A DNA stretch of 48,523 nucleotides from a virus. Shown piece after piece: positions 13,950 to 34,392 of the stretch. Position 1 is the stretch's first letter; each line of letters begins with the position of its first letter. The stretch is from positions 1 to 48,523 of the IMG/VR virus record IMGVR_UViG_3300009175_000009, one strand, 5' to 3'. The notes beneath the pieces are model-generated. The model saw only the letters and a list, made by a program, of their open reading frames with translations, was not told the DNA's origin and made no database searches. A program made the translations under genes and the position numbers.

Positions 13950-13970
13950 TATCATGCGAACGCCGTGCCA
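13950..13970 (-). promoter_or_regulatory. Sigma-54-type promoter (divergent pair, left)
   Basis: Minus strand TGGCACGGCGTTCGCATGATA; GG-N10-GC. Serves the SWIM gene at 13883. It is back to back with the promoter at 14066, leaving about 95 bp that would hold any shared activator site. Confidence 0.85.
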
Positions 13971-14065: not shown

Positions 14066-14086
14066 TGGCACGCCGTTCGCATGATA
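14066..14086 (+). promoter_or_regulatory. Sigma-54-type promoter (divergent pair, right)
   Basis: TGGCACGCCGTTCGCATGATA, GG-N10-GC, preceded by GAATTC. Serves the gene starting at 14157. Confidence 0.85.
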
Positions 14087-14854: not shown

Positions 14855-14881
14855 TTGACCTCGGGCTAGACAAACTATAAT
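14855..14881 (+). promoter_or_regulatory. Sigma-70-like promoter of the endonuclease VII gene
   Basis: TTGACC, 15 nt, TATAAT; the spacing is short for sigma-70 unless the -35 is read one base earlier. It directly precedes the interleaved stem leader 14886-14972. Confidence 0.6.
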
Positions 14882-14885: not shown

Positions 14886-14972
14886 GTGTTGTCAGCACAT
14901 ACCCCAAACACCCCCGTCCCGCAGAGGCTCTGCATCTTCTAGATGCTGTGCTGACAACACCTGCGGGGCGGG
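14886..14972 (+). promoter_or_regulatory. Interleaved-stem leader (copy 3) before endonuclease VII-like gene
   Basis: Stem b GTGTTGTCAGCACA (14886-14899) pairs with b' (14947-14960), 14 bp. Stem d CCCGTCCCGCAG (14913-14924) pairs with d' CTGCGGGGCGGG (14961-14972), 12 bp, followed by CTTTTAATT. Order b-d-b'-d' with no gap between b' and d' makes the full stems mutually exclusive, as in attenuators: d:d' plus the T-run looks like a terminator and b:b' like an antiterminator. GCATCT/AGATGC forms a small inner hairpin. Confidence 0.65.
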
Positions 14973-14989: not shown

Positions 14990-15664
14990 ATGCCGTACAA
15001 AAACCCTGCCGACAAAAAGGCGAATGACGCACGACGTGCGGCGGCTATCCTTGCTGACCCTGTTCAACGGGAGAGACGCAATGCACGGCATTGTAAGAAC
15101 TATGCCCGCCTCAAAAAGAACTCATCTTGGTGTAGGAAACGAGCCGAGGATTCGCACCGCCGCAACCAAACCAAATACTACGCTGATGTGGCGGCATCCC
15201 GCAAGCTCGTGCGGGAGCGGTTATCGCAAATGCGGGTGGCCAACACAGGCAATATCAACGGAAAAACCAAGGCGTATCGCCAACAGCACCGGAAGCAAAT
15301 CAACGCCAGTACCAAGGCATGGCTGGTGGCCCATCCTGAACGGGCCAAAGCGTACCGGCGGGCGGCACATCTTCAGGCAAAATATAAGATGACCCACAAA
15401 ACATACGAGGAGATGTTTAACGCTCAGGGTGGCGTATGTGCTGCGTGCGGTCAGCCTGAAACAAGTAAACGGCTAGGAGTGATTCGGCACATGCACGTCG
15501 ATCACGACCACGCCACCGGCAAGGTGCGAGCCCTATTGTGCCACAGATGTAATTCCGCCCTTGGACTTCTCAAGGACGACCGAACACTGGTGGCTAACCT
15601 GCTACTCTACATCAGCAAGTACCAACCCGTCACCCGCCGAAGAATTCAAACTGTTGGCACATGA
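14990..15664 (+). CDS. Endonuclease VII-like HNH nuclease
   Basis: 224 residues from ATG 14990 (M-P-Y-K-N-P-A-D). The C-terminal half has the recombination endonuclease VII pattern: C-A-A-C-G zinc pair, V-D-H-D-H-A-T-G catalytic core, then L-L-C-H-R-C-N zinc pair. The N-terminal half is basic and helical, probably DNA binding. In phages this fold either resolves branched DNA or acts as a homing nuclease; the isolated position, own promoter and leader favour a mobile gene. The end (R-R-R-I-Q-T-V-G-T) is encoded by the sigma-54 promoter region. Confidence 0.85.
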   Translation: MPYKNPADKKANDARRAAAILADPVQRERRNARHCKNYARLKKNSSWCRKRAEDSHRRNQTKYYADVAASRKLVRERLSQMRVANTGNINGKTKAYRQQHRKQINASTKAWLVAHPERAKAYRRAAHLQAKYKMTHKTYEEMFNAQGGVCAACGQPETSKRLGVIRHMHVDHDHATGKVRALLCHRCNSALGLLKDDRTLVANLLLYISKYQPVTRRRIQTVGT

Positions 15665-15675
15665 CGTGCATGATA
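15655..15675 (+). promoter_or_regulatory. Sigma-54-type promoter
   Basis: TGGCACATGACGTGCATGATA, GG-N10-GC, preceded by GAATTC. The nuclease stop (TGA) lies inside it. Drives the two genes from 15699. Confidence 0.8.
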
Positions 15676-15698
15676 CGACCAGCGAAAGGAACTGAATT

Positions 15699-16158: not shown

Positions 16159-16179
16159 CGGCACGCCGGTTGCATGATA
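16159..16179 (+). promoter_or_regulatory. Sigma-54-type promoter
   Basis: CGGCACGCCGGTTGCATGATA, GG-N10-GC. No gene follows for about 280 nt; the first product would be the hairpin-rich RNA at 16185-16305. Confidence 0.8.
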
Positions 16180-16309: not shown

Positions 16310-16337
16310 TTGACGTAGCGAGTAGATCAGCTAGACT
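16310..16337 (+). promoter_or_regulatory. Sigma-70-like promoter of HNH/AP2 gene
   Basis: TTGACG, 16 nt, TAGACT. The same arrangement occurs before the related module at 26361-26388. Confidence 0.7.
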
Positions 16338-16344: not shown

Positions 16345-16437
16345 GTCGGTTGACCTTGCACTTGGCCGACGAGCTTTGATTCATTTACGCCCAACCCGTC
16401 TCACGTCACTCGCAAGGTCAAACGTGGGGCGGGTTGG
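16345..16437 (+). promoter_or_regulatory. Interleaved-stem leader (copy 1) before HNH/AP2 gene
   Basis: b TTGACCTTGC (16350-16359) pairs with b' GCAAGGTCAA (16412-16421). d CCAACCCGTCTCACGT (16391-16406) pairs with d' ACGTGGGGCGGGTTGG (16422-16437), 16 bp. Order b-d-b'-d', so the complete stems compete. Compared with copy 2 at 26401-26486, b and b' differ by paired changes (CTTGC/GCAAG against CTCAC/GTGAG), which is covariation evidence for b:b'. Confidence 0.7.
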
Positions 16438-16455
16438 TGTCGTTAGGATCATATC

Positions 16456-16977
16456 ATGCCGGAAAGACGCAGAATAACGAGCGTGCGGTTCATACCGCTG
16501 ACGCAGGGCCGGTTTGCTATCGTGGATGCAGCCGATTACGAATGGCTGACGCGATTCAGCAAGTGGTGCTACAACGGAACCAAAGGCTATGCCGTCAGCA
16601 GCCTAGTTCGCCGGTTGTCTCGGGCCGGCGAATCGTATCAGATGCACCAGATCATTATGCGGGCTCCTCCCGGCGTAAGCCCAGACCATAAGAATGGCAA
16701 CAAGCTCGATAACCGCCGCAGCAATCTGCGGCTGGCCAACGGTACGCAGAATATGGCCAACCGCGATCTACAGAGCAACAACACGACCGGCTACAAAGGT
16801 GTAGTTAGGCATCGTGGTAAATTCCGAGCCCGCATCGGCGATGGACTTCGCAAGGGTGGTCGGCATCTTGGCATATTCTTGACCGTTGAAGAAGCAGCTT
16901 TGGCCTACAACACGGCGGCTGTTGAAATGTACGGTGAGTTCGCTTGTTTGAATTCGGTTGGCACGCGATTCGCATGA
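16456..16977 (+). CDS. HNH endonuclease with AP2 DNA-binding domain
   Basis: 173 residues. HNH_3-type core (YQMHQIIM, P-D-H-K-N-G-N-K-L-D-N-R-R-S-N-L-R) at residues about 58-95, followed by an AP2 domain (GYKGVVRHRGKFRARIG ... HLGIFLTVEEAALAYNTAA). AP2 domains bind DNA and are typical of free-standing phage homing nucleases. It has its own promoter and a competing-stem leader. The last codons G-T-R-F-A-stop are encoded by the sigma-54 promoter. Confidence 0.85.
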   Translation: MPERRRITSVRFIPLTQGRFAIVDAADYEWLTRFSKWCYNGTKGYAVSSLVRRLSRAGESYQMHQIIMRAPPGVSPDHKNGNKLDNRRSNLRLANGTQNMANRDLQSNNTTGYKGVVRHRGKFRARIGDGLRKGGRHLGIFLTVEEAALAYNTAAVEMYGEFACLNSVGTRFA

Positions 16978-16979
16978 TA
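16959..16979 (+). promoter_or_regulatory. Sigma-54-type promoter
   Basis: TGGCACGCGATTCGCATGATA, GG-N10-GC, preceded by GAATTC and overlapping the nuclease stop. Drives the leader at 16993 and genes from 17104. Confidence 0.85.
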
Positions 16980-16992
16980 CTTCCATCGTAAA

Positions 16993-17072
16993 CGGTCAGC
17001 GTAAATCCTGCGGGCTCCCAAGCCTTCGGGCAGCAAAACAAGGTGGGCATACCCCACCGAATACGCTGACCG
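16993..17072 (+). promoter_or_regulatory. Structured multibranch leader RNA
   Basis: CGGTCAGCGTA (16993-17003) pairs perfectly with TACGCTGACCG (17062-17072), enclosing GGCT/AGCC and GGTGGG/CCCACC hairpins: a closed multi-branch structure just after the predicted transcription start and 30 nt before the first gene. The closing sequence GTCAGCGT/ACGCTGAC recurs in the leader at 8823-8902. Riboswitch-like form, ligand unknown. Confidence 0.55.
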
Positions 17073-17103
17073 CCGCTCAAACCAGCAGCGAAGGAATGCT
17101 AGA

Positions 17104-17322
17104 ATGTCTGAACGAGAAAAAAACGCCTGGAACGAGATCGACGAACAAGCCGCCCGCGAGGGTTCGGCCCGCCGCCGCGAGTTTCACCACCACTTCACCG
17201 CCGCCGCGACGTCGCGGGGCATTGGTGTCCACAGTACTTCAATGGGCAAGAGCCGAGGCATGGCCAGCCGACCCGCTTCGGGCCGATTCGACCGCCTCGT
17301 CCAGCACACCCGAGCAGCCTGA
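17104..17322 (+). CDS. Hypothetical protein (72 aa)
   Basis: GAAGGA precedes the ATG. 72 residues, Arg-rich with an H-H-H stretch; helical first half. No family recognised. First gene after the structured leader. Confidence 0.55.
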   Translation: MSEREKNAWNEIDEQAAREGSARRREFHHHFTAAATSRGIGVHSTSMGKSRGMASRPASGRFDRLVQHTRAA

Positions 17323-17340
17323 ACCGAAAGGTAACCAACC

Positions 17341-17529
17341 ATGAAGAACCGACCCACAGTAATGACCGACAGCGGCGTATCCGTTGTTCTGGTTCCCTTG
17401 CCACACGGCCAGTTCGCGGTGAACCGCGTCTACAAGGGCAAGACCGACCGTATCGGCTACGTCGCCGTGCAGGGAAACAGCCCGTGCTGGCCCTGCGGCG
17501 AGACCTTGTGCCGCCCACGTCGCCGGTAG
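17341..17529 (+). CDS. Hypothetical protein (62 aa)
   Basis: GAAAGGTAACCAACC precedes the ATG. 62 residues, mostly beta-like, with C-W-P-C-G and a C-terminal R-P-R-R-R. Function unknown. Confidence 0.55.
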   Translation: MKNRPTVMTDSGVSVVLVPLPHGQFAVNRVYKGKTDRIGYVAVQGNSPCWPCGETLCRPRRR

Positions 17530-17549
17530 CCCGCCTCGCTGTCGAGGCA

Positions 17550-17636
17550 ATGTCGCAGCGATTCAGCGAGCCACCTCCCCGCGAGTTGCACGGCCCCGAA
17601 AACGGCCCCGAAGATGATGGAGACGCACCGTGCTAA
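17550..17636 (+). CDS. Possible very small protein (28 aa)
   Basis: ATG 17550 with GAGG only 3 nt upstream opens 28 codons (MSQRFSEPPPRELHG and so on), ending over the GTG of the next gene. Pro/Glu-rich. It may be a real leader peptide or chance; it fills an otherwise gene-free 100 nt. Confidence 0.3.
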   Translation: MSQRFSEPPPRELHGPENGPEDDGDAPC

Positions 17637-17893
17637 CCGTCGAACTCAAACACGAACGAGCGAAGGGCCGAACCGCCGAGGTCGCCACCCTCCGCGAAGC
17701 ATCCGAGACCGTTCGCCTATACATCAGCTACTTTAGCCTTGGGAACGGCAACTGGCAGGGCGGGCTGGTACGCCAGAACGGCAAGCGGAAGTACATGATC
17801 TCTTACAATGGTCGTGTCTGGAAGTATGAGCCGAAAGGCTGGACGAACACGACGCCTGAAATCACTGGTGAAGAACTGGACAAACCATTATGA
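17630..17893 (+). CDS. Hypothetical protein (87 aa)
   Basis: GTG 17630 with TGGAG upstream. 87 residues, beta-rich, several Trp and Tyr. Overlaps the next start by ATGA. Unknown function. Confidence 0.6.
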   Translation: MLTVELKHERAKGRTAEVATLREASETVRLYISYFSLGNGNWQGGLVRQNGKRKYMISYNGRVWKYEPKGWTNTTPEITGEELDKPL

Positions 17894-18243
17894 CCACAGC
17901 GACGCAACCGACCCTCGACGCCCGCGGCTGGTTTGACTTCGTCAGCGAGATTCACGAGCAGGTGAAAAAGGCGGGCCGCATCTACACGACCGGCCAGATC
18001 GCTCGCCGCATCCGGGTCAAAGTCCTGAAGCAGTACCGCGATCAGGGCGACGACGAGATGACCGCCGAACGCGTGCGGCATGGCCTCGACCGTGTTGGCC
18101 CAGGCGGGCTTACCGGAATGATACTGCGATATGTAGAGGGCACCCTGGCCGTGCGAACGCGGGCGGGCGTGATCGATCAGCGGAACTACCACAACCGCGA
18201 CGCATTCCTTGCGGCCATCCGAAACCTGAATCCAAGGGCATAG
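17890..18243 (+). CDS. Hypothetical protein (117 aa)
   Basis: ATGA-coupled to the previous gene. 117 residues, helical, with an HTH-like centre (YTTGQIARRIRVKVLKQYRDQG). May bind nucleic acid; family not recognised. Confidence 0.6.
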   Translation: MTTATQPTLDARGWFDFVSEIHEQVKKAGRIYTTGQIARRIRVKVLKQYRDQGDDEMTAERVRHGLDRVGPGGLTGMILRYVEGTLAVRTRAGVIDQRNYHNRDAFLAAIRNLNPRA

Positions 18244-18245
18244 TC

Positions 18246-18401
18246 ATGGACGAAGATATCGACGAACTCGATTACGAGTGCCCGCCGGTGTGCAGCGAGT
18301 GTGGCGAGAATCTTTGCGATTCGTGCGGCTGCTGCGGCAACCCGCACTGCGAAGCGTGCTGCTGCCCGCTTGTGGAACGCGAGGACGACGCGGGAGAATG
18401 A
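18246..18401 (+). CDS. Cysteine-rich mini-protein (51 aa)
   Basis: AAGGG precedes the ATG. 51 residues containing about eleven Cys arranged as C-S-E-C, C-D-S-C-G-C-C, H-C-E-A-C-C-C, framed by acidic ends. The spacing resembles a compact two-zinc finger (RING/FYVE-like treble clef). Such small phage zinc proteins often bind host protein; target unknown. Confidence 0.6.
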   Translation: MDEDIDELDYECPPVCSECGENLCDSCGCCGNPHCEACCCPLVEREDDAGE

Positions 18402-18449
18402 GCCATGAACGAATATGAAAAGTAATTCGCCTCGTTATCCCTAGCGGAG

Positions 18450-18803
18450 GTGATGGAGCTTCGGAAGATCAAGACGAAGCTGACCGATCAGTACCTGCAT
18501 GAGGAACTGCCCACGGTGCAGGGCTGGTGTAACAAGTGCGATGCCTGCGGGGCGGTCGGATACCAAGACCCGCCCGTGATGTACACCGATCCCGAGTCTG
18601 GATCAGTGATCACGTTGCAGGGCCGTATTTACAACAAGACGATGTTTCGCGCGATCGGCGAGATTTTATGCGAGAAGTGTTTCGTCCGGGAGTATTACAA
18701 CGGACCGACCAACGACGTGCCCAAGCGGGGCAACCCACACCTGACGACACCGCACTCGCAGTGGAGTTACGACGGTGGTAGATTTGGAAGCGGAGAATGG
18801 TGA
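18450..18803 (+). CDS. Hypothetical zinc-ribbon protein; start region damaged
   Basis: About 117 residues with C-N-K-C-D-A-C-G and a later C-E-K-C pair, so probably a zinc ribbon. GTG 18450 and ATG 18453 lie too close to GGAG for a normal start. The same frame continues upstream to ATG 18405, which has a well-spaced GGAG, but TAA interrupts it at 18423 (M-N-E-Y-E-K-stop-F-A-S-L-S-L-A-E-V-M). A nonsense mutation with restart downstream is the simplest reading. Confidence 0.55.
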   Translation: MMELRKIKTKLTDQYLHEELPTVQGWCNKCDACGAVGYQDPPVMYTDPESGSVITLQGRIYNKTMFRAIGEILCEKCFVREYYNGPTNDVPKRGNPHLTTPHSQWSYDGGRFGSGEW

Positions 18804-18804
18804 T

Positions 18805-19137
18805 ATGAACCACGAAGAATTCCTCAAGTTTCTTGGCAGCGAGGCCCGACCCAAGTGTGGCCGGTGCTGGTGGCGGGAGGGCCGCAAGTGCTACAACGAG
18901 AACCTCGGTGCAGTACCGGGCGAGGGTCAGGACATCACCGCTGAACTGTGGGCTACCTGCTCTGCCACACCCGCGTACCAGAACAGTCGGGCGACCCTGG
19001 CTCAGGCCCTGCCGAACATCTTGCTGGCCGTCGCGGCACAGACGCAGCCCGCTGAAAAGGTTGTCCAGTGCTGCGAAGCTGTCGAGTCGGCATACGATTC
19101 GCATGATACCGCTGGTCAGAAAGGAACTGAATCATGA
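18805..19137 (+). CDS. Hypothetical Cys-containing protein (110 aa)
   Basis: ATG 18805 follows GGAG. 110 residues, with K-C-G-R-C-W and further Cys, possibly metal binding. Its 3' end contains the promoter 19088-19108 in frame (S-A-Y-D-S-H-D-T), and overlaps the next gene by ATGA. Confidence 0.6.
   Translation: MNHEEFLKFLGSEARPKCGRCWWREGRKCYNENLGAVPGEGQDITAELWATCSATPAYQNSRATLAQALPNILLAVAAQTQPAEKVVQCCEAVESAYDSHDTAGQKGTES
19088..19108 (+). promoter_or_regulatory. Sigma-54-type promoter, weaker -24 box
   Basis: CGGCATACGATTCGCATGATA: GG-N10-GC and CATGATA kept, -24 box GGCAT. Drives the gene at 19134; GAAAGGAACTGAATC follows. Confidence 0.65.
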
Positions 19138-19592
19138 CTATCGGAACCCCAAGTGTCTGCGAGTGGATTCGCAGCCTGCCGAATACTAGCAACGTTCGCC
19201 CGTGCCGAGTCACCATCAAGGGCCAAACCTGGGAGGGTGCTTATTACGAGGAGGAACGCGAGTGGCAGCAGGGCATGGACGGCGTGCAGCGAGGTGAACA
19301 CAAGGCGGGCGATAAGTACGTCATCCGCCGCATCTACCTGCTCGGCGACCGGCCTGTGTTCAACCGTGAACGTGTCTGCTTCCCGTCGTATGAGGGCCTG
19401 GACTGGTACGTTTCGGGCTACTGCGTCACCTTCAAGCCCGAGCAGAAAAAGTATCATCCCTTCGGCAAGAGCTTTCAGATCATGCCGTGGGAGATCGAGG
19501 GCAAGCCCGACTGCAAGATCGACAGTCACGAACTGCACCCGTACCTGCGGGTGCCGATGACGGTCGAGTTCATCGAGGAGACCGCGTCATGA
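19134..19592 (+). CDS. Hypothetical protein (152 aa)
   Basis: 152 residues, beta-rich, acidic and aromatic, with no recognised motif. Starts in an ATGA overlap and ends in another, so it belongs to the operon leading into the deoxyribosyltransferase-like gene. Confidence 0.6.
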   Translation: MTIGTPSVCEWIRSLPNTSNVRPCRVTIKGQTWEGAYYEEEREWQQGMDGVQRGEHKAGDKYVIRRIYLLGDRPVFNRERVCFPSYEGLDWYVSGYCVTFKPEQKKYHPFGKSFQIMPWEIEGKPDCKIDSHELHPYLRVPMTVEFIEETAS

Positions 19593-19927
19593 CATGCCCC
19601 AACAAGCACCCCGAAGGCCCGGTTTGTCCGACCTGCGGCGGATCCTGTGCTCCGTCCGGAGTCGACAGAGGATCGTGGGTTCACTTCCCTGTGACGGCCA
19701 GCGGTCGCGTGATCGATAGACTGGCCATCGAAGGTCATGGTGCGATTCAGGTGGACGAGTCTCCCGACCGCGAGCCGCCCATCATCGTCCTCGCCGGCCC
19801 GATCAAGTTCTGGTGGCAGGAAGGTCAGTGGGATAGCCTGCGGCATCAGGAATACGTGCAGTGGCGGGACGCAGTGCGGGTGGCCTTGGTGAAGGCCGGA
19901 TTCGCCGTCTATTCGCCACAGGTCTAG
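19589..19927 (+). CDS. N-terminal half of a split nucleoside 2-deoxyribosyltransferase-like protein
   Basis: 112 residues, ATGA-coupled. A Cys-rich N-terminus (CPNKHPEGPVCPTCGG) is followed by P-I-I-V-L-A-G-P-I and V-A-L-V-K-A-G-F-A-V-Y-S-P, the first Rossmann-like half of the nucleoside deoxyribosyltransferase/related fold. It stops just after Y-S-P, where the domain should continue; the continuation begins at 20413 after an HNH gene. So the enzyme appears split by a homing-type insertion. It would act on nucleoside or nucleotide N-glycosidic bonds if the halves assemble. Confidence 0.65.
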   Translation: MTCPNKHPEGPVCPTCGGSCAPSGVDRGSWVHFPVTASGRVIDRLAIEGHGAIQVDESPDREPPIIVLAGPIKFWWQEGQWDSLRHQEYVQWRDAVRVALVKAGFAVYSPQV

Positions 19928-19953
19928 ACATTATGCCCTGTATAGCCTATACT
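19925..19953 (+). promoter_or_regulatory. Sigma-70-like promoter of the splitting HNH gene
   Basis: TAGACA, 17 nt, TATACT, starting at the stop of the N-terminal half gene and 20 nt before the HNH start. The -10 is good, the -35 imperfect. Confidence 0.5.
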
Positions 19954-19972
19954 ATGTTTGGAGGGCGTAAGT

Positions 19973-20416
19973 ATGCTATGCAGAGTATGCAACGAGCGAG
20001 AGGTTCCTGAAGGCCACAAACGGAACAGGAATTACATTTGTAGCCAGTGCCACTACGGACGATACAAGGAAAAGGCACAAATCCTAAATCGAAGGAACGG
20101 TAAACGTTACCGCAAGGAGTTGCGGGAACGTATGTTTGATGCTTACGGCAGGGAGTGTGTTTACTGCCACAGCACGACGAATTTGCAGTTCGATCATACT
20201 AACGGTGACGGTTGCCGCAAAACGCGGGGATATGATACGCGGCAGTGGTTTCTGATGCTTATTGCCGCAGGATTCCCGCCTAGCTGCCAAGTGGTGTGCG
20301 GGCAGTGTAACGTAGCAAAACAGAATATGACCGATGCTCAGTTCCGAGCCTGGATCAAGATGGTATATCACGCTATTCACGGCGTGGAACGGCGACGCAT
20401 ACGGAGTACTACATGA
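19973..20416 (+). CDS. HNH endonuclease inserted in a metabolic gene
   Basis: ATG 19973 with GGAGGG upstream; 147 residues. Zinc pairs C-R-V-C and C-S-Q-C at the N-terminus, then C-V-Y-C, the HNH-like L-Q-F-D-H-T-N-G-D-G and V-V-C-G-Q-C-N. Free-standing HNH nuclease, probably homing. Its ends abut the two halves of a deoxyribosyltransferase-like gene. The 510-nt insert is almost all coding, leaving no room for a group I intron core. Confidence 0.8.
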   Translation: MLCRVCNEREVPEGHKRNRNYICSQCHYGRYKEKAQILNRRNGKRYRKELRERMFDAYGRECVYCHSTTNLQFDHTNGDGCRKTRGYDTRQWFLMLIAAGFPPSCQVVCGQCNVAKQNMTDAQFRAWIKMVYHAIHGVERRRIRSTT

Positions 20417-20655
20417 TCCTTCAACACCGAGCGATCCAGGGCCGCTGGAACGAAGGGCTTCAGCGGATTAACGATGCCGCGATCATGAACGCCGACGTCA
20501 TCGTGGTGCTGACGCCGCGGGACGTGCCCGCCGAAGGAACAGCACGCGAGGTCAAATTGGCGAAGCGGTTCAACATACCAGTCATTACCGCCCCACCAGG
20601 CAGCGATAGAAATCTCAGCACGCTCGTTGAAAGCTGCCTTGAGGAGGCTCGATGA
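20413..20655 (+). CDS. C-terminal half of the split deoxyribosyltransferase-like protein
   Basis: 80 residues starting in an ATGA overlap with the HNH stop. H-R-A-I-Q-G-R-W resumes where the first half left off, followed by A-D-V-I-V-V-L-T-P, G-T-A-R-E-V-K-L-A and I-P-V-I, the ligand-binding second half of the fold (Gly-Thr-x-x-Glu is the usual catalytic region). Likely functions together with 19589-19927. Confidence 0.65.
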   Translation: MILQHRAIQGRWNEGLQRINDAAIMNADVIVVLTPRDVPAEGTAREVKLAKRFNIPVITAPPGSDRNLSTLVESCLEEAR

Positions 20656-21560
20656 ACTTCCACGAGTTCCCACTGTTCTACGTTTCGGCCAAACGCCTGG
20701 GCATGGTTCCCAGAGGCGTCTCATCTGCGGTGTTCTACGCGAACCACTTTCGTGATATGCATTGCATCGGAACATCCGCCGAGGCTGAAGTGCTGGGCGT
20801 TCACCTGTTCATGGAAGGCTGGTGGGCGGAGCATAACCGGCCCTTCTATAACGTGTGGCCTAAGATCATCCCGATGCTGACCCGCCTCGACCTGTCACAG
20901 ATCACGGGCAAGATGCTGAAGTCTCCCAAGCAGGTCATGTGTCTGCGGTTCCCGCAGGAAGGAAACCCGTTGACCCGCGACGGCGTGACTCTGCGGTCGA
21001 TGCTGGTTGGTCCGGTCAGCACAACCGCAGGTCACCCGGCCTATTTCACGGCACAGGACTACGGAGAAACGATAAGCGGCCTGCCCGTGGTATCAACGAA
21101 CTGGGTGCCGCTGCGGCCCGACCAGCCGCTGCTGGAGACCTTCGGCGGTTGCAAGAAGCGGGAATCCGCGATGGACGGCATCCAGATTCCCGAGGAACTA
21201 ATGCTAGATGTGTGGCGTCTGGTGTTCACCTTGTCCCTACTGGATGATGATCCCGAATTGATCGAACGCATCGTCCTCGCCGCCGACCGGAACGACTATG
21301 ATCGCAGCGGTGACCAGAAGTACGTTGCCAAGGCGGAACGTCGCGGCGTGTTGGGTTGGGATATCGGCAAACGTGTCGAGGTGATGCCGCACTATCGCCG
21401 CCCGCACCTGGGCCTGCGGTGGACGGGCGAGGGCCGTACCGTGGCCAAGATCGTGCCGATCAAGGGAGCAATCATTCACCGCGAGGCTGTTCTTCAACAG
21501 CCGACCGGCGAGGAAGGGCCGGTGGACGTGTCTAATGATCAACAAGGAGACAAGCCATGA
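20652..21560 (+). CDS. Hypothetical protein (302 aa)
   Basis: ATGA-coupled to the preceding half gene. 302 residues. The C-terminal region has Y-R-R-P-H-L-G-L-R-W-T-G-E-G-R followed by beta strands, a pattern I have seen in phage and plasmid proteins of unknown role. No membrane segment. Function not assigned. Confidence 0.6.
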   Translation: MNFHEFPLFYVSAKRLGMVPRGVSSAVFYANHFRDMHCIGTSAEAEVLGVHLFMEGWWAEHNRPFYNVWPKIIPMLTRLDLSQITGKMLKSPKQVMCLRFPQEGNPLTRDGVTLRSMLVGPVSTTAGHPAYFTAQDYGETISGLPVVSTNWVPLRPDQPLLETFGGCKKRESAMDGIQIPEELMLDVWRLVFTLSLLDDDPELIERIVLAADRNDYDRSGDQKYVAKAERRGVLGWDIGKRVEVMPHYRRPHLGLRWTGEGRTVAKIVPIKGAIIHREAVLQQPTGEEGPVDVSNDQQGDKP

Positions 21561-21994
21561 ACGACAGCGACGTTAAGTATGTAGCTGTACCCCGCACCAA
21601 TCCTGAGATGTACCAGGAAATTCGTGCGAAGTACTATTCCCGCAAATGGTGGATGGCTATTGGATTTGATGGCGAGGACGCGATGTCGGTCATGGAGGCT
21701 ATCGGTGCAGCCGTCGATCTTACCGGAGACGTCGATGGATCCGTGCTGTATGAGTGCCCCGTGGGGATTTACGGAGATGACGGTGTACCAGAGAAAGATA
21801 TATTCTGCATCCTGTTCATTCACAAACGGGTTGACTGGAATGCAATATTCCGAGCGTGTCGTCAAAATCGCCTGGATGCGTTTCCAGAGCAGCCGCCCCA
21901 GCAGGACGTTTTGATTCTTAGCACGAGTCTGCATAAAACAGCCATGACTACCTACGATAATGTTCTGAGCTGTTACTCGCATCTGGACAACTAG
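21557..21994 (+). CDS. Hypothetical protein (145 aa)
   Basis: ATGA-coupled. 145 residues, alternating helices and strands, acidic. No motif recognised. Confidence 0.6.
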   Translation: MNDSDVKYVAVPRTNPEMYQEIRAKYYSRKWWMAIGFDGEDAMSVMEAIGAAVDLTGDVDGSVLYECPVGIYGDDGVPEKDIFCILFIHKRVDWNAIFRACRQNRLDAFPEQPPQQDVLILSTSLHKTAMTTYDNVLSCYSHLDN

Positions 21995-22027
21995 CGTGAA
22001 ACGAAACGAGTAGACCAGATTGAGGAT

Positions 22028-22219
22028 ATGATGCGATACATAGTAATTGAGCACAACAGCCGTGACCCGCAGAACCCGAAGGTGAAGGTGTTCTCAGGAT
22101 CGAGTGCGAAGAGTAACGCACTGTTATTCGATGACGTATCATCGAACACATGCCAGATTTACTTTGTGAAGGGCGACCTGACCCTCCAACCCGTAGAACG
22201 AAACGGAAAGTCATCTTGA
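22028..22219 (+). CDS. Hypothetical protein (63 aa)
   Basis: Either ATG 22028 or 22031, after TTGAGGAT. 63 residues, mostly beta strands. Unknown. Confidence 0.5.
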   Translation: MMRYIVIEHNSRDPQNPKVKVFSGSSAKSNALLFDDVSSNTCQIYFVKGDLTLQPVERNGKSS

Positions 22220-22231
22220 TCGGAAGTACCT

Positions 22232-22534
22232 ATGAAATCCAAAGACTGGGCTAATCCGCTGCGGAAACACCTGAAGGCCAAAGGCTGGGCGAGGCAGGAC
22301 AGGGGCGGTGTCGAGCTATGGCGGGATCCGATTCGCCGCGACACGCTGGGCCACTCCTTCTTTATGACGTTCGCCGGGGCGGTCAAAGTGCAGAAGAGCC
22401 GCGATGACGGCAGCGACAAGATCACCTGCCAGGCCAACATCGTCGATCACGATTTATTCGGCATTCGCAAGTGCAGTCGCAAGCCAAAGGCGAACGGGTA
22501 CTGCCACCAGCACAGGAAGCAAGCACAATCATGA
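22232..22534 (+). CDS. Hypothetical protein with C-terminal zinc-knuckle pattern (100 aa)
   Basis: 100 residues. The C-terminus has C-x-A-N-I-V-D-H, R-K-C-S-R, then G-Y-C-H-Q-H-R, ligands typical of short treble-clef fingers found near phage HNH genes. ATGA overlap with the next gene. Confidence 0.6.
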   Translation: MKSKDWANPLRKHLKAKGWARQDRGGVELWRDPIRRDTLGHSFFMTFAGAVKVQKSRDDGSDKITCQANIVDHDLFGIRKCSRKPKANGYCHQHRKQAQS

Positions 22535-22908
22535 AGATCACCATCGTAGACCAGATCGTGCGGCCCAAGGTTGAGGGCGGATGTGAGTGGGGCAATTTTC
22601 GCAAGGTGCTGGTCAGGCTCGTGCGGGGCGGAAAGCCCGTGAAGGAACTGTGGTGGATGCCGGGCTTCACGGGTTGGGCCGGCAGGGGATGTACCGACTA
22701 CTATCATTCTCAGCTTATGACCGATGCTGAAGACGGCAGCGGACGCCCGCTGGGCGGGGCCAACAGTGAGTGGAAAACACTGCACGAGGGCGGCAGGCTC
22801 AGCGTGAAACTTATTGCAAAATACGCGAAGCAAATCGACGCGTTCTTCGGTGATTCGGTGTCTGGTCTTATCAGGAATACCAGAAAAACCATGATCATCG
22901 AGGACTAG
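22531..22908 (+). CDS. Hypothetical protein (125 aa)
   Basis: Start ATG 22531 overlaps the previous stop. 125 residues; Trp/Gly-rich first half, helical second half. No family recognised. Confidence 0.6.
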   Translation: MKITIVDQIVRPKVEGGCEWGNFRKVLVRLVRGGKPVKELWWMPGFTGWAGRGCTDYYHSQLMTDAEDGSGRPLGGANSEWKTLHEGGRLSVKLIAKYAKQIDAFFGDSVSGLIRNTRKTMIIED

Positions 22909-22921
22909 TCAATTGCCCCAC

Positions 22922-23707
22922 ATGCGAGTCTTCATCCGAGTTAGGCTGAGCGAGGCCGGTCGCCGTGCCGACGTGACCGCCGGCGGCAATGGGGCAGCCG
23001 AGTTTGATATCGAGGTGTTCCGGGCAACGACCGCACCGGATGATTGGGCCGCCGTCGTCGATCAGGCCGACCTCGACCGCGACGAAGCTGTCCTCGATAT
23101 GCGAGGCGGTATCACACGCGACGGCATCACTGTACCCATCGCGGACTTCTCGTGGGTTCCCGACGTCAGGCAGGCCCTAGTTGTCTATCGGGACGCTGTA
23201 CGAGAATGGGTACGAATGCGATGGGAGGAGGACACTCGCCGAGCAAATCTGGGCCTGCGGCCTGGTGATTTTGATTTCCCGATGTGCCGCGACGTGCTAC
23301 TGCGGGTGCCGGTCTATGAGAAGACGCCCGGCAGCAGGAACTGGATGGCGTCTGTGCGGCTTGCCCCGAACGCACCGGGAGGCCTGGATCGAGCGTGGAT
23401 GATGCGGGTGCGCGACGGCGACGACGGTTACTACAGGCTGCGACCGTTGCAAATAGGTGACGTGGTTGAGTTCGGGGCTGACCTGCTGACCGACCGCAGT
23501 AAGAGGTTCAAAAACCGCTGGTACGGATACGTGGTGCGACGTACCGATGATATGCTCGTCTTGCACAAGACCAACACCGCCGAGGTGGCATTCCGCGAGG
23601 GGGCGGTTTACGCAGCCAGCGTTGCCCCGCCGCCCGTCGTGCCCAAGCCCCGCCGACGCCGAATTGGTGGCCATATCGAGGAAGAACGCCCGACGTGGGA
23701 GCTGTGA
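22922..23707 (+). CDS. Hypothetical protein with R-P-T-W-E-L tail (261 aa)
   Basis: Start uncertain: ATG 22922, or TTG 22913 which is better spaced from GAGGA. 261 residues; mostly beta, charged, with a basic patch before the C-terminus (PKPRRRRIGG). The tail E-E-R-P-T-W-E-L matches those of two other unrelated proteins here. Function unknown. Confidence 0.6.
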   Translation: MRVFIRVRLSEAGRRADVTAGGNGAAEFDIEVFRATTAPDDWAAVVDQADLDRDEAVLDMRGGITRDGITVPIADFSWVPDVRQALVVYRDAVREWVRMRWEEDTRRANLGLRPGDFDFPMCRDVLLRVPVYEKTPGSRNWMASVRLAPNAPGGLDRAWMMRVRDGDDGYYRLRPLQIGDVVEFGADLLTDRSKRFKNRWYGYVVRRTDDMLVLHKTNTAEVAFREGAVYAASVAPPPVVPKPRRRRIGGHIEEERPTWEL

Positions 23708-23786
23708 GGCGACTTTATGCCGCGTGCGGGCCACTGTAGGCCAGACGTGGCGAGGTGTTCCCGACTGCGGCTACCGGGCCACCCGA

Positions 23787-23820
23787 GCCGCCTGCCGCAC
23801 AGCGGGCCTATACAGGCGGC
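23787..23820 (+). terminator. Hairpin between convergent genes
   Basis: GCCGCCTG (23787-23794) pairs with CAGGCGGC (23813-23820), directly at the stop of the minus-strand gene. No long T-run, so it may be a weak or factor-assisted terminator. The remaining 23708-23786 holds no gene. Confidence 0.45.
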
Positions 23821-24339
23821 TTACACGGGCGGAGCTTCCACAGTCTGATTCCGAAATAGCACCTCGTCTTCGGGCGACCTGAAGGCATAGAGTATCATGT
23901 CTCCGGTGACAAGGGCTAAAACGTCACACTTACCGTTCTGGAACTGGCGGTTTTTGCAGTGCTGAACAAGACTCGTGGTCTTGTACATTTTGCCAGTCGA
24001 TACCTGTACGGTGAGCAGGCGGTCGCCGATACCCACAACGAGATCATGCCCACACCCCGCCGAGATCGCACGGTAAACGTCCCACCCACGTCGAAGCATA
24101 TCGACAGAAACGATTAGCTCATGGGCCGCACCCGTATCGCTGTTGCACTTGCAGCTTGACGTTGCGGATGTGGTTCGGAGGAATCGTGTGCCAGAACAAT
24201 CCCAGATATGATCGGCAGTAGCGATGCGTCGCCGCACTGATCGCCTAGCCGCGTTTGATGCACAAGATCGAGAGCAGAACATCTGGTTGGCGTTGCCGCT
24301 GTACCGCCCTCCGCAGAAATCACAGTAGCCTAACATCAT
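23821..24339 (-). CDS. Zinc-finger PD-(D/E)XK endonuclease-like protein
   Basis: ATG 24339 follows GGAG; 172 residues. N-terminal zinc finger (CDFCGG ... CSRSC), basic linker, then H-E-L-I-V-S-V-D-M-L-R-R-G-W-D-V, G-H-D-L-V-V-G-I-G and L-L-T-V-Q-V-S-T-G-K. The Glu, Asp and Q-V-x-T pattern matches PD-(D/E)XK nucleases of the phage/intron-associated group; the usual Lys after Q-V is Ser here, with Lys two residues later. A possible mobile nuclease, supported by an interleaved-stem leader like those of the HNH genes. Confidence 0.65.
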   Translation of the reverse strand: MMLGYCDFCGGRYSGNANQMFCSRSCASNAARRSVRRRIATADHIWDCSGTRFLRTTSATSSCKCNSDTGAAHELIVSVDMLRRGWDVYRAISAGCGHDLVVGIGDRLLTVQVSTGKMYKTTSLVQHCKNRQFQNGKCDVLALVTGDMILYAFRSPEDEVLFRNQTVEAPPV

Positions 24340-24347
24340 TAGACTCC

Positions 24348-24425
24348 ACCCGCCCGCCGTGCATGGCCATACCACTGGAGACGCACAGCGGGACGGGTAG
24401 GTTTGGTTTGTTAGGTGGTATGGCC
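24348..24425 (-). promoter_or_regulatory. Interleaved-stem leader (copy 4) before PD-(D/E)XK gene
   Basis: Reading the minus strand: b GGCCATACCAC (24425-24415), d ACCCGTCC (24398-24391), b' GTGGTATGGCC (24375-24365), d' GGGCGGGT (24355-24348), with d' touching the GGAG ribosome site. Same b-d-b'-d' order and similar d/d' sequence as the HNH leaders, but different b sequence and a different nuclease family. Confidence 0.6.
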
Positions 24426-24436
24426 GAACAGCAGTC

Positions 24437-24465
24437 ATAATAGCACAAACCAGCCCTGTGACCAA
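24437..24465 (-). promoter_or_regulatory. Sigma-70-like promoter of PD-(D/E)XK gene
   Basis: Minus strand TTGGTC, 17 nt, TATTAT, just before stem b of the leader. Between here and 24529 nothing else is seen. Confidence 0.55.
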
Positions 24466-24528
24466 CCTGGCCCTTCGGCAGTCGCCAGTGACCAACCTCG
24501 GTGACCAAGTTCCGGTATTTGATTCAAT

Positions 24529-24549
24529 TGGCACAGCGTTCGCATGATA
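24529..24549 (+). promoter_or_regulatory. Sigma-54-type promoter
   Basis: TGGCACAGCGTTCGCATGATA, GG-N10-GC. Drives the gene at 24606. Confidence 0.85.
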
Positions 24550-24605
24550 TGCCTCCTAGAAATACAACCTCGCGGGCCAACGCCCGCCCAAGCAAGGAAA
24601 CGAAC

Positions 24606-24911
24606 ATGACCGCCACAACGATTCAACTGTCCGCCCTGGCTGACGTGATCCAAGTTTACAGCGGCAGGGCGAACGCCTGCTGCTGCGGATGCAGCGGCAA
24701 GCATACCGTAGCCTCGGCCCACCGAGCCGAAGCGGCCCGACGCTGCGGATACGCGGTGGCTGACGAGGACGTCAGCGACCGCACGGTCAAGCTGATCTAC
24801 AACAAGGTCGCAAAAGCCGCCGAGGCCGGTGTCGAGTTCATTTGCACGGGCGAGTCGAACTGCTGGTCGGTCGATGTCGGCAGCCGCACGTATTGCCTGT
24901 ACATAGCATAA
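24606..24911 (+). CDS. Hypothetical protein with C-C-C-G-C-S motif (101 aa)
   Basis: AAGGAAACGAAC precedes ATG 24606. 101 residues with an N-terminal C-C-C-G-C-S-G-K-H and two later Cys. The pattern A-C-C-C-G-C-S-G-x-H is seen in small phage proteins of unknown role. Monocistronic between two sigma-54 promoters. Confidence 0.65.
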   Translation: MTATTIQLSALADVIQVYSGRANACCCGCSGKHTVASAHRAEAARRCGYAVADEDVSDRTVKLIYNKVAKAAEAGVEFICTGESNCWSVDVGSRTYCLYIA

Positions 24912-24923
24912 AGCAGATTCGGC

Positions 24924-24944
24924 TGGCACGCCATTCGCATGATA
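24924..24944 (+). promoter_or_regulatory. Sigma-54-type promoter
   Basis: TGGCACGCCATTCGCATGATA, GG-N10-GC. Followed by a 230-nt structured leader. Confidence 0.85.
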
Positions 24945-24954
24945 TGCCAGCCGA

Positions 24955-25175
24955 TAGCACCCTGCCGGTAAGCCCGCAAAGAATCGTCGCGGGCCTTGGT
25001 GCAACCCACCGACCGCCGTTAAGCCAGCACCTAGCAGGACTCGTCGCTGGCCGGTCGGAAACCGCTGAACCCACGGCGGTAAGCCCTAGCGAGGCTTTGT
25101 GGGGTCTTTTCTTCGGACGGGTTAGGTGGGCGAGGGCTCGTAGCTCCTCGCCCACCAACCTCCTAAGCATAGCAG
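24955..25175 (+). ncRNA. Long structured leader or small RNA
   Basis: No convincing gene in about 235 nt. Stems visible: GCACC ... GGTGC enclosing GCCCGC/GCGGGC; CCGACCG ... CGGTCGG enclosing GCCAGC/GCTGGC; and GGCGAGG ... CCTCGCC near 25121-25152 just before the small gene at 25183. A multi-domain RNA transcribed from the promoter at 24924. Confidence 0.5.
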
Positions 25176-25182
25176 GTGAACC

Positions 25183-25296
25183 ATGAACGGTAAACGAGCC
25201 ATCAAAAAGAGCAGCAGGAACAACCCAGTGAAGAAGTCGCTGCGGTTGGTGAAGGCCAAGGTTCGCAAGCTGCATCTCAAAGAGCATAAGAACTAA
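25183..25296 (+). CDS. Very small basic protein (37 aa)
   Basis: AGCAGGTGAACC precedes the ATG. 37 residues, over one third Lys/Arg (MNGKRAIKKSSRNN start). Followed closely by AAGGA for the next gene. Probably real from spacing; role unknown, perhaps RNA or DNA binding. Confidence 0.45.
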   Translation: MNGKRAIKKSSRNNPVKKSLRLVKAKVRKLHLKEHKN

Positions 25297-25307
25297 GGAA
25301 CCTGAAC

Positions 25308-25571
25308 GTGATACAGGCACTGAAAGATCTGGTCGCCGCCGACCAAACCGAGGTCGCGGCCATCAAACGGCAGTTGCGTCAGCACCGCAAGGAGCGATAC
25401 GAGCAACTGGCTCTGACTCTGATGGCCGAGTTCAACCTGCCCCGCGACCGTGTGGATTGCCACATCGCAGAGGGCCGACTGCGTAATACCGACTTCGTTG
25501 AAGTTTGCCGTATTGCCGAGCGTCAGAGCATCGCTTCGCGGAGACAACTTGATCAAGGAGTTCGACGATGA
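25308..25571 (+). CDS. Hypothetical helical protein (87 aa)
   Basis: GTG 25308 with AAGGA upstream. 87 residues, Arg/Gln-rich helices. ATGA overlap with the next gene. No motif recognised. Confidence 0.55.
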   Translation: MIQALKDLVAADQTEVAAIKRQLRQHRKERYEQLALTLMAEFNLPRDRVDCHIAEGRLRNTDFVEVCRIAERQSIASRRQLDQGVRR

Positions 25572-25924
25572 ACGCAAACGAACCAACAATTCTCAGCAGC
25601 GAAGAAGCTGGCGTGAGGATCACCCTCACGCCCGACAAAAAGGAATGGCTGGAGCAGGGCCTGAAGATCGAGTGCCTGAAGGTGGACTGCGGACGCGAGT
25701 TTGAAGTGGGCCACATCCTCGATCCCTATGGCCCCGCGCCAGCCCTGCGTCTCGACGCTCCGCTGGGCGTCCGCACCGTAGCCCTAATCCTGAAGGCTTT
25801 GGAACTGCGACTTGTATGTATTCCTCCTGGGCCAGCCAATGGGCCTACAACGGGCTACCAGGCTGAAACAGGGGCCGAACGGTCGCATCGGGCCGCGACC
25901 CAATGGCCAGATTTCACCCAATGA
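25568..25924 (+). CDS. Hypothetical protein (118 aa)
   Basis: ATGA-coupled. 118 residues; the last 35 (after R-L-V-C-I-P-P-G) are low-complexity and unlike the rest, so the 3' end may have been altered by recombination near the promoter at 25952. Confidence 0.55.
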   Translation: MNANEPTILSSEEAGVRITLTPDKKEWLEQGLKIECLKVDCGREFEVGHILDPYGPAPALRLDAPLGVRTVALILKALELRLVCIPPGPANGPTTGYQAETGAERSHRAATQWPDFTQ

Positions 25925-25951
25925 GACGTAGACCGTCGAATTCGGATTTAT

Positions 25952-25972
25952 TGGCACGGCATTCGCATGATA
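25952..25972 (+). promoter_or_regulatory. Sigma-54-type promoter of a structured RNA
   Basis: TGGCACGGCATTCGCATGATA, GG-N10-GC, preceded by GAATTC. The next 280 nt contain no plausible gene. Confidence 0.85.
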
Positions 25973-25974
25973 TG

Positions 25975-26255
25975 CTTACCGTTCCTGCGGCCCTTGCCTG
26001 AGTGAGGTGAAGGCCCGACAAGCGAGGTGCGAAGTACAAGCAATACCGGCTCCGTCCCCCGACGCCAAGATCGAGGGCACGAGGCCGCAGGAGCGAACGG
26101 TCCTTAGAACGCGGGGTAAAACCTGCGGGTCAGGTCTTACGGGAGTAAGACCGCAGCGGTTCGATTCCGCAGGGATCACCTCAGAAACCGAACTGGCTCG
26201 AAAATCATGGCTGGGCAACACTCGCGCGTGAGCCCACGGGTTCCTGCGGCCCCAA
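25975..26255 (+). ncRNA. Candidate structured non-coding RNA
   Basis: Lies between two sigma-54 promoters and has no plausible coding frame. TGAGGTGA (26003-26010) pairs with TCACCTCA (26176-26183). Inside are GGTCTTAC/GTAAGACC (26133-26152) and a tRNA T-arm-like GCGG-TTCGATT-CCGC (26156-26170). GTTCCTGCGGCCC occurs twice (25981-25993 and 26240-26252); both copies can pair with GGCCGCAG at 26083-26090, implying alternative folds. I could not fit a tRNA, RNase P, 6S or SRP RNA. Confidence 0.6.
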
Positions 26256-26281
26256 GAGCAGTTCGGTGGATTCACAGCGAA

Positions 26282-26302
26282 TGGCACAGCCTTCGCATGA
26301 TA
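26282..26302 (+). promoter_or_regulatory. Sigma-54-type promoter
   Basis: TGGCACAGCCTTCGCATGATA, GG-N10-GC. Followed by a GCGGCGTC/GACGCCGC hairpin (26350-26370) and then the HNH module. Confidence 0.85.
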
Positions 26303-26360
26303 GGGTAGGCAGAAAGCAAACACGACCGAGTCGGGTGACGGCCCAAAGTGCGGCGTCCCG

Positions 26361-26388
26361 TTGACGCCGCAGGTAAACCGACTAGAAT
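26361..26388 (+). promoter_or_regulatory. Sigma-70-like promoter of HNH/AP2 gene (copy 2)
   Basis: TTGACG, 16 nt, TAGAAT; the -35 box overlaps the 3' arm of a GC-rich hairpin. Same geometry as 16310-16337. Confidence 0.7.
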
Positions 26389-26400
26389 AAGGGCAGTCGG

Positions 26401-26486
26401 TTGACCTCACAACTTGGCCGACAAACGAATCATGACTAACCAACCCGTCCTGCGTGACTTGTGAGGTCAAACGTGGGGCGGGTTGG
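26401..26486 (+). promoter_or_regulatory. Interleaved-stem leader (copy 2)
   Basis: b TTGACCTCACAA (26401-26412) pairs with b' TTGTGAGGTCAA (26459-26470), 12 bp. d CCAACCCGTCCTGCGT (26440-26455) pairs with d' ACGTGGGGCGGGTTGG (26471-26486), 16 bp with G-U pairs. b' and d' are contiguous, so both full stems cannot coexist easily. Compensatory differences from copy 1 support the b:b' pairing. Confidence 0.7.
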
Positions 26487-26506: not shown

Positions 26507-27004
26507 ATGTCGCGTAATCCAGTTGGTACGGCGTGGCGGGACATGAAGTACCGCTGTTTTAATTCAAGCCACCAAGCCTATTTTAACTATGGTGGTCGTG
26601 GAATTACGGTCTGCTTGGGTTTACAAGATTTTACTAAGTTCACCCAGGTTCTAGGCCCACGACCAGAAGGCTACACTCTTGACCGCGAAGATAACGAGGG
26701 TAGCTACACCTGTGGTGAATGCGACCAGTGCCGGGAGAATGAGTGGGTGAAGAACGTAAGGTGGGCTACGCGAAGTGATCAGCAGCTTAACCGAAGGACA
26801 ACGAATCATACCGTACTGTACAGGGGTGTAAGTCTCCATCTTGGAAAGTACTACTTAGCCCAAATTCGCTGTAACGGGTTACTACAATACGTGGGGTGTT
26901 TTCCTACGGCAAGGGAAGCCGCCATCGCGTACAACCAGGCGGCTACAGCCATTCGAGGGGCGAACGCTAAGATAAACCGAATTCGGATTCAGACCGGCAC
27001 GTGA
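26507..27004 (+). CDS. HNH-type endonuclease with AP2 domain
   Basis: ATG 26507 with CGGAG upstream; 165 residues. N-terminal half has W-R-D-M-K-Y-R-C, NYGGRGITVC, T-L-D-R-E-D-N-E-G-S-Y, V-R-W-A-T and Q-L-N-R-R, as in the 12745 protein; the C-terminal half is an AP2 domain (YRGVSLHLGKYYLAQI ... FPTAREAAIAYNQAA). Homing-type nuclease with its own promoter and competing-stem leader. The end (R-I-Q-T-G-T) is encoded by the next sigma-54 promoter. Confidence 0.85.
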   Translation: MSRNPVGTAWRDMKYRCFNSSHQAYFNYGGRGITVCLGLQDFTKFTQVLGPRPEGYTLDREDNEGSYTCGECDQCRENEWVKNVRWATRSDQQLNRRTTNHTVLYRGVSLHLGKYYLAQIRCNGLLQYVGCFPTAREAAIAYNQAATAIRGANAKINRIRIQTGT

Positions 27005-27015
27005 TTCGCATGTTA
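26995..27015 (+). promoter_or_regulatory. Sigma-54-type promoter
   Basis: CGGCACGTGATTCGCATGTTA, GG-N10-GC, preceded by GAATTC; nuclease stop TGA inside. Drives 27107 and 27737. Confidence 0.75.
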
Positions 27016-29344: not shown

Positions 29345-29418
29345 CGCGGAGTGGAGCAGTCCGGTAGCTCATGAGATTCATAATCTCAAGGTCGCAGGTT
29401 CAAATCCTGTCTCCGCCA
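29345..29418 (+). tRNA. tRNA with CAT anticodon (Met or Ile2)
   Basis: Cloverleaf: acceptor CGCGGAG/CTCCGCC with a C1 x C72 mismatch, D-arm GAGC/GCTC, anticodon stem TGAGA/TCTCA with loop TTCATAA, T-arm GCAGG-TTCAAAT-CCTGT. The 1-72 mismatch recalls initiators, but the anticodon stem lacks the three G-C pairs of initiator tRNA, so elongator Met or lysidine-modified Ile is as likely. CCA is not encoded. Confidence 0.75.
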
Positions 29419-34382: not shown

Positions 34383-34392
34383 GAGAAATAAC

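Follow-up and report, generated by a model that had tools for sequence, protein, structure and literature searches.

Interlocked stems in the leaders of phage nuclease genes

Do the long, interlocked stems in front of two HNH nuclease genes of a phage, one represented in metagenomes alone, exclude one another, as in a regulatory switch, or do they form together, and how widely do they recur? The question arises in a stretch of 48,523 nucleotides (nt) of the IMG/VR record IMGVR_UViG_3300009175_000009 (the window, meaning the whole stretch of DNA analysed), where leaders at 16350–16437 and 26401–26486 (leaders 1 and 2) had been interpreted from the letters alone as a switch controlling a homing nuclease (the original prediction). 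Five leaders in which segments b, d, b′ and d′ follow each other and pair as b/b′ and d/d′ were identified in this phage, starting at 14886 (+), 16350 (+), 24425 (−), 26401 (+) and G000:87357 (+), the last of these (leader 4) lying outside the window and the other four inside. Judged on sequence, this recurrent RNA architecture is real and wider than first seen, and geometric modelling indicates that it is probably a pseudoknot rather than a switch.

Leaders 1 and 2 contain the stems originally described, with 10 and 12 bp in b/b′ and 16 bp in d/d′, as well as a third stem that had not been noticed before (stem a, GTCGG/CCGAC, up to 9 bp in the minimum-energy fold), which encloses b, is identical in the two leaders and takes up the first four bases of b:

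16345–16353 with 16362–16370 (+), leader 1 stem a, GTCGGTTGA with TTGGCCGAC, from the minimum-energy fold, its loop containing the remainder of b
16350–16359 with 16412–16421 (+), leader 1 helix b/b′, b TTGACCTTGC and b′ GCAAGGTCAA, 10 bp, from the scan and copy comparison
16391–16406 with 16422–16437 (+), leader 1 helix d/d′, d CCAACCCGTCTCACGT and d′ ACGTGGGGCGGGTTGG, 16 bp, from the scan and slid-helix test
26396–26404 with 26414–26422 (+), leader 2 stem a, GTCGGTTGA with TTGGCCGAC, from the minimum-energy fold
26401–26412 with 26459–26470 (+), leader 2 helix b/b′, b TTGACCTCACAA and b′ TTGTGAGGTCAA, 12 bp, from the scan and copy comparison
26440–26455 with 26471–26486 (+), leader 2 helix d/d′, d CCAACCCGTCCTGCGT and d′ ACGTGGGGCGGGTTGG, 16 bp, from the scan and slid-helix test

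We confirmed that b and b′ change together between the copies (CTTGC/GCAAG against CTCAC/GTGAG), which represents two double compensatory changes (T-A to C-G and G-C to A-T). The d′ segment is the same in both leaders, and three further single changes, all located in d, preserve pairing (as G-C, G·U or A-U) when read on the coding strand but not on the other. Over 26 aligned pairs, the seven substitutions (two double in b/b′, three single in d) broke no pair, while a transition-biased null model of random substitution kept all pairs with a probability of 0.0019. In the slid-helix test, 93.7% of the cells of the d helix of leaders 1, 2, 3 and 5 were paired versus at most 50.0% when the helix was slid, with rows that were hand-aligned with N padding and with leaders 3 and 5 preselected for pairing. 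Interleaved inverted repeats might instead work as DNA, as a protein site or a mobility end, since such repeats look the same on both strands and a like pair is located between two genes in the unrelated contig L103. This is very improbable, however, as the three single changes are neutral on the coding strand only, and all five sites are downstream of promoter-like boxes on the nuclease coding strand.

The similarity between leaders 1 and 2 begins at the promoter-like boxes, spans the leader and fades in the coding region, and the best PHROG families of the two HNH proteins differ (phrog_99 and phrog_374), so that conservation seems to be stronger in promoter and leader than in the genes that they would drive.

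Five leaders share one architecture

The main scan covered both strands of the 112.5-kb record G000, which holds the window, for b-d-b′-d′ arrangements with at most 3 nt between b′ and d′, scored by stacking energy, with a stricter limit that the weaker stem must reach −14; 40 dinucleotide shuffles, both strands, served as the null. The leaders scored −57.3 (leader 4), −56.5 (leader 3), −53.9 (leader 2), −51.4 (leader 1) and −49.5 (leader 5), followed by a sixth site at −44.0. All five leaders thus score beyond the top of the shuffles (−48.0), which contained 12 sites at or below −45 and none at −50. A site at 67487, scoring −47.6 in a looser scan, was excluded because its weaker stem (−11.8) misses the −14 limit. 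The 192-kb record G001 belongs to the same phage and contains the same five leaders, with no further site better than −44.0, and record G002 contains leaders 2, 4 and 5, with the positions of the other two falling past its end. Identity among the three records is 99.98% or higher across long matches, and they were therefore counted as one phage. The scan added the following elements:

14886–14899 with 14947–14960 (+), leader 3 helix b/b′, 14 bp
14913–14924 with 14961–14972 (+), leader 3 helix d/d′, 12 bp, followed by CTTTT
24425–24415 with 24375–24365 (−), leader 5 helix b/b′, 11 bp
24392–24381 with 24364–24353 (−), leader 5 helix d/d′, 12 bp, extended by ACCCG/CGGGT beyond a bulged T
G000:87357 (+), leader 4, outside the window

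Across the five leaders the helices measure 10–14 bp (b/b′) and 12–17 bp (d/d′). The sequence CCCGTC is present in d of four leaders (not leader 4), and GGGCGGG is found within or directly after d′ in all five, neither motif being a criterion of the scan. The CTTTT behind d′ of leader 3 would suit a transcription attenuator, in which d/d′ is an intrinsic terminator modulated by b/b′ or a factor; this reading is barely credible, as leaders 1, 2, 4 and 5 have no T run after d′ and thus lack the G+C-rich stem followed by a T run that is expected of a terminator.

Position between promoter-like boxes and nuclease genes

Each leader is preceded by promoter-like boxes:

16310–16337 (+), leader 1, TTGACG-N16-TAGACT, pattern match
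26361–26388 (+), leader 2, TTGACG-N16-TAGAAT, pattern match
14855–14881 (+), leader 3, TTGACC-N15-TATAAT
before leader 4 in G000 (+), TTGTAC/TATACT
24437–24465 (−), leader 5, TTGGTC-N17-TATTAT, recognised by eye

The box pattern of leaders 1 and 2 has four matches in the window, against 0.04 expected. The distance from the −10 box to b is 12, 12, 4, 16 and 11 nt in leaders 1 to 5, which places b at or near the predicted 5′ end of the RNA, and RNA from the gene's own promoter would carry nearly the whole structure (start sites being predicted). All five leaders end 13–21 nt upstream of the nuclease start codon; for leaders 1 and 2 the distance from d′ to the ATG (at 16456 and 26507) is 18 and 20 nt, so that d′ is not beside the start codon as had been proposed. 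With b so close to the −10 box in all five leaders, and with plain 5′ hairpins at the start of further phage genes (among them two for HNH proteins and one of another kind), the structure might chiefly guard the messenger RNA (mRNA) against decay from the 5′ end while hardly affecting translation. We regard this as unlikely, since a simple hairpin would suffice for that function, which also leaves unexplained why the interlocked form was found at nucleases only and why d′ is located 13–21 nt from the start.

A homing-type endonuclease-like gene, assigned from sequence, follows each of the five leaders:

16456–16977 (+), nuclease gene 1, HNH_3 with an AP2-like tail, AP2 below cut-off (PF13392, 5.5e-8; phrog_99, 2.1e-36)
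26507–27004 (+), nuclease gene 2, HNH by PHROG and without an HNH Pfam match, with an AP2-like tail below the Pfam cut-off (phrog_374, 4e-29; AP2, 0.046)
14990–15664 (+), nuclease gene 3, endonuclease VII-like, 224 aa from the ATG (PF02945, 4.6e-21)
after leader 4, G000:87357 (+), nuclease gene 4, HNH with a zinc-ribbon-like start (phrog_2255, 1.7e-22; Pfam HNH 0.2 only)
23821–24339 (−), nuclease gene 5, PD-(D/E)XK-like (PDDEXK_5, 1.6e-4, 22.1 bits against a cut-off of 26.1)

Nuclease 5 also displays weak kinship with proteins of six phage records, one of them annotated as an endonuclease. The claim of a structured leader before a homing nuclease therefore stands in so far as a covarying structure is located upstream of a homing-type gene, but it is not specific to HNH genes, as several nuclease families follow. 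The pairings, their position between promoter-like boxes and start codon, and the link with nucleases are all supported by sequence. Promoter and leader may even represent a module, a dedicated pseudoknot class of cis-regulatory RNA that moves from one homing endonuclease gene to another, unrelated one, keeping its d/d′ core in common while b/b′ drifts but remains paired. We put this forward tentatively and consider it doubtful on balance; if true, HNH, endonuclease VII and PD-(D/E)XK nucleases of one phage would be under common RNA control.

A probable pseudoknot rather than a switch

The b/b′ and d/d′ helices have no nucleotide in common. As stated originally, b′ adjoins d′ (gaps of 0, 0, 0, 2 and 0 nt in leaders 1 to 5), but this lends no support to competition between the stems, since none of the bases is shared. 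The abutment of b′ and d′ and the short linker between d and b′ (5, 3, 22, 7 and 5 nt, with an internal hairpin in that of leader 3) suit two stacked helices of one pseudoknot. In an A-form model, the b-to-d linker of 31, 27, 13, 17 and 22 nt spans 65–81 Å in all five leaders, and the deep-groove distances, a column chosen by analogy with ordinary H-type pseudoknots, are 20.7, 28.6, 33.6, 28.6 and 25.0 Å. These deep-groove spans are reachable except in leader 2; with the less favourable distance column, the cost is one pair in each of leaders 1 and 5 and two or three pairs in leader 2. The modelled spans are thus feasible, and we infer that both helices can coexist.

Mutual exclusion of the two stems, with a signal choosing between them, had been the core of the original prediction, and is suggested by the way in which the stems interleave and abut, by the four-base overlap of stem a with b in leaders 1 and 2, and by the two states of leader 3 being just ~2 kcal/mol apart. 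Treated as strict alternatives, however, the d/d′ state is better by approximately 18, 21, 2, 16 and 22 kcal/mol in leaders 1 to 5, and the large gaps give a poor footing for a two-state switch, leader 3 perhaps excepted. A switch of this kind would require shared nucleotides and near-equal energies, and we found no shared nucleotide and a gap of 2–22 kcal/mol (16–22 in four leaders), while both helices fit in the model and no sensor was recognised by Rfam, which makes a switch quite improbable. Real overlap is confined to leaders 1 and 2, where stem a takes in the four leading bases of b; this may order folding.

Proposed effect on translation

Our preferred reading, which we hold at somewhat short of an even chance, is that the leaders form an H-type pseudoknot at the 5′ end of the RNA, next to the ribosome-binding site or overlapping part of it, which damps translation of the nuclease. 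Each leader would serve as 5′ untranslated region to a free-standing gene for a homing-type endonuclease, transcribed from its own host-type (sigma70-like) promoter, and the emerging RNA would fold as an H-type pseudoknot, with b/b′ closing the 5′ end, d/d′ sitting beside or partly covering the ribosome-binding site, and b′ and d′ forming one continuous strand that would allow the helices to stack. In leaders 1 and 2 the extra 5′ hairpin would keep most of b in its loop, and b/b′ may start as a loop-loop contact. The main effect would be that nuclease translation is held low, and the closed 5′ end may additionally slow mRNA decay. Predicted exposure of the Shine-Dalgarno sequence in leaders 1, 2, 4 and 5 was 0.22, 0.58, 0.30 and 0.03 with d/d′ formed, and 0.55, 0.87, 0.53 and 0.37 with b/b′ alone, and the d helix of leaders 4 and 5 is predicted to extend into the Shine-Dalgarno sequence.

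Several observations weigh against the translational pseudoknot. Leader 3 has no clear Shine-Dalgarno sequence and its start region is predicted to be open in both states, the start codon of leader 2 is predicted to pair with coding sequence in both states, and leader 2 must give up one or two end pairs to reach across the deep groove. Leader 5 exceeded the shuffles by a narrow margin, and the pairing of leaders 3–5 is not independent evidence, as pairing was a criterion of the scan that picked them. Comparable stacking energies, taken alone, are not unusual where phage DNA is G+C-rich, with 27 sites at or below −49 in 141 other loci (1.12 Mb) and, in a tighter-window control, 17 sites in 195 loci (1.29 Mb), five of which are compact and located on contigs of 65–73% G+C, compared with ~58% here. 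No leader homologue, and hence no diverged one, was detected outside the three near-identical records of this phage, in searches that were partly sampled. Finally, three profile searches of G001 combined with reading revealed that the pseudoknot is missing from at least six other endonuclease-like genes, including:

13424–13455 (−), 12-bp hairpin directly after the promoter of an endonuclease-like gene
10754–11678 (−), broken HNH-like gene with stops, apparently split across frames, with TTGACG/TAGAAT boxes and a 13-bp 5′ hairpin at 11615–11646
G001 38945 (−), endonuclease-like gene with a weak family match and a shorter hairpin, seen by eye
42905–43519 (+), HNH gene, nearly leaderless

Two more endonuclease-like genes showed no 5′ hairpin, and the gene behind the promoter at 38337, which does not look like a nuclease (no family search was made), also begins with a 5′ hairpin. 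Plain hairpins at several other genes suggest that stable 5′ RNA is common in this phage, and the interlocked form was found at nuclease genes only, within this phage.

Comparison with known RNA elements

The claim that the leaders match no known riboswitch or intron agrees with the Rfam covariance models, which detected no family at gathering score in the window and only weak matches (E ≤ 5) in each leader, far short of gathering scores, the best at 21.7 bits versus 96. Group I introns, HEARO-type guide RNAs and self-cleaving ribozymes were dropped for want of an Rfam match and because the leaders do not fit these classes in size and context.

RNA control of phage homing endonucleases has been described as relying on plain hairpins, which repress when positioned over the ribosome-binding site of T4-type genes (I-TevI, I-TevII, I-TevIII, T4 segB and Aeh1 mobE), and which form on read-through RNA while missing from the RNA of the gene's own late promoter (PMC2988022). 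The leaders share with these a stable structured RNA that precedes a phage gene of homing endonuclease type, with the d helix predicted to enter the Shine-Dalgarno sequence in leaders 4 and 5, but differ in having an interlocked stem pair, on predicted own-promoter RNA. Sequestration of the ribosome-binding site would be uneven here, as predicted Shine-Dalgarno exposure with d/d′ varies from 0.03 to 0.58 and leader 3 is without a clear one. The same source describes, for seg43(25) of Aeromonas phage 25, a very stable hairpin just upstream of the ribosome-binding site (PMC2988022), which resembles leaders 1–3 in not covering that site; it is a single plain hairpin at a single gene, with no interlocked second stem described.

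A pseudoknot proper is found in the gene 32 leader of T4, T2 and RB69, located 67 nt upstream of the start, where it nucleates gp32 on an A+U-rich tract, according to a 2010 review that called it possibly the sole viral pseudoknot in translational autoregulation (PMC3014915). The likeness would lie in the stacked helices of a pseudoknot (modelled in our case) within a phage mRNA leader, with a bearing on translation, and the difference lies in that gene 32 is not a nuclease gene and that the 10–17 bp helices here end 13–21 nt from the start. The gene 32 type is defined by the leader of a single-strand-binding protein gene to which that protein binds, whereas the genes downstream here are nucleases. 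Because own-promoter RNA is predicted to carry the structure and the genes are not gene 32, we placed the leaders in neither family. With this precedent (PMC3014915), the pseudoknot could be an operator, a specific site at which a phage protein, either the nuclease or a common regulator, blocks translation as gp32 does in T4. The d/d′ sequence common to four leaders would suit a single common binder, but no binding protein was identified, and autoregulation by five nucleases of differing family would need differing sites; we consider an operator fairly unlikely. No report of pseudoknot leaders on homing endonucleases was found in searches of the open-access literature for leader structures of these enzymes. 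If the translational pseudoknot holds, five such leaders in a single phage, upstream of nucleases from several families, would mean that these selfish genes can be regulated by an RNA part that is used repeatedly, and the leader would be a possible structural signature for locating homing nucleases.

Searches for related leaders

Exact motif searches in IMG/VR returned 1, 14 and 3 stretches, three stretches being this phage; in the 11 other stretches of the 14-stretch search the remainder of the leader was absent. A looser motif matched at least 120 stretches, and of 139 pattern places in all loci compared (phage repeats included), only the copies of this phage scored better than −42.2. Relatives of nuclease 1 were collected from 22 loci in viruses and 27 in genomes, and in the upstream regions of 48 of these 49 (one starts too close to its end) the best arrangement scored −42.4 with a 64-nt linker, the phage's own copy aside. 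The best scores were −37.5 upstream of ten earlier relatives of nucleases 1 and 2, and −28.1 upstream of ten isolated-phage relatives of nucleases 2, 4 and 5 (from 756, 350 and 6 matching records); for the relative in L236, the start of the match was used in place of the annotated start. A blastn search of the five leaders against the phage collection gave no match for four and a single 37-nt match (E 0.1) for the other, and when related phages were sought through the helicase, the two near-identical records were all that came back.

The original prediction had named a covariance-model search over phage genomes as a check. A model (R1) of the d hairpin of leaders 1, 2, 3 and 5, which misses leader 4, matched none of 8 genomes. 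In 397 genomes belonging to the same class as a Phycisphaerae genome (E ≤ 0.5 per genome, stricter filters than in the 8-genome run), it matched 8, which is about chance and includes none with a long b/b′ abutting the hairpin. No homologous leader was recovered in these searches, and the covariation is that between the phage's own copies 1 and 2. Most genomic relatives of nuclease 1 belong to Phycisphaerae and Sedimentisphaerales, and the host is therefore probably a planctomycete.

Other features of the phage

Sites of the type TGGCACG-N4-TTGCATGATA show sigma-54 spacing, the consensus being GG-N10-GC, and are located, among others, at:

14066–14086, 16159–16179, 16959–16979, 24529–24549, 26282–26302 and 41008–41028 (+)
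8922–8942, 10727–10747 and 13950–13970 (−)

There are 16 in G000 with at most one mismatch (control 0), all within the window, and 20 in G001 with a looser pattern. Five nuclease genes run into such a site with their final codons or stop (15640–15680, 16955–16980, 26980–27015, and the ends of the HNH genes 12745–13395 (−) and 42905–43519 (+)), as if the nucleases were located directly upstream of the promoter of the next gene. Beside these sigma-54-like sites, the phage carries a gene for a sigma70-type factor at 34342–35313 (+) (Sigma70_r2, 5.3e-16; Sigma70_r4, 1.6e-12).

A tRNA-Met and a transfer-messenger RNA (tmRNA) gene with the tag AKNKFEKAPAFALVA are located at 29345–29873 (+). Approximately 390 bp at 17188–17578 are present in G000 and missing from G001, and the junction has 13 bp in common. 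In L103, an unrelated G+C-rich phage contig, stems of 15 and 10 bp interlock alike at ~540–620, in an intergenic region just before the start of the second gene.

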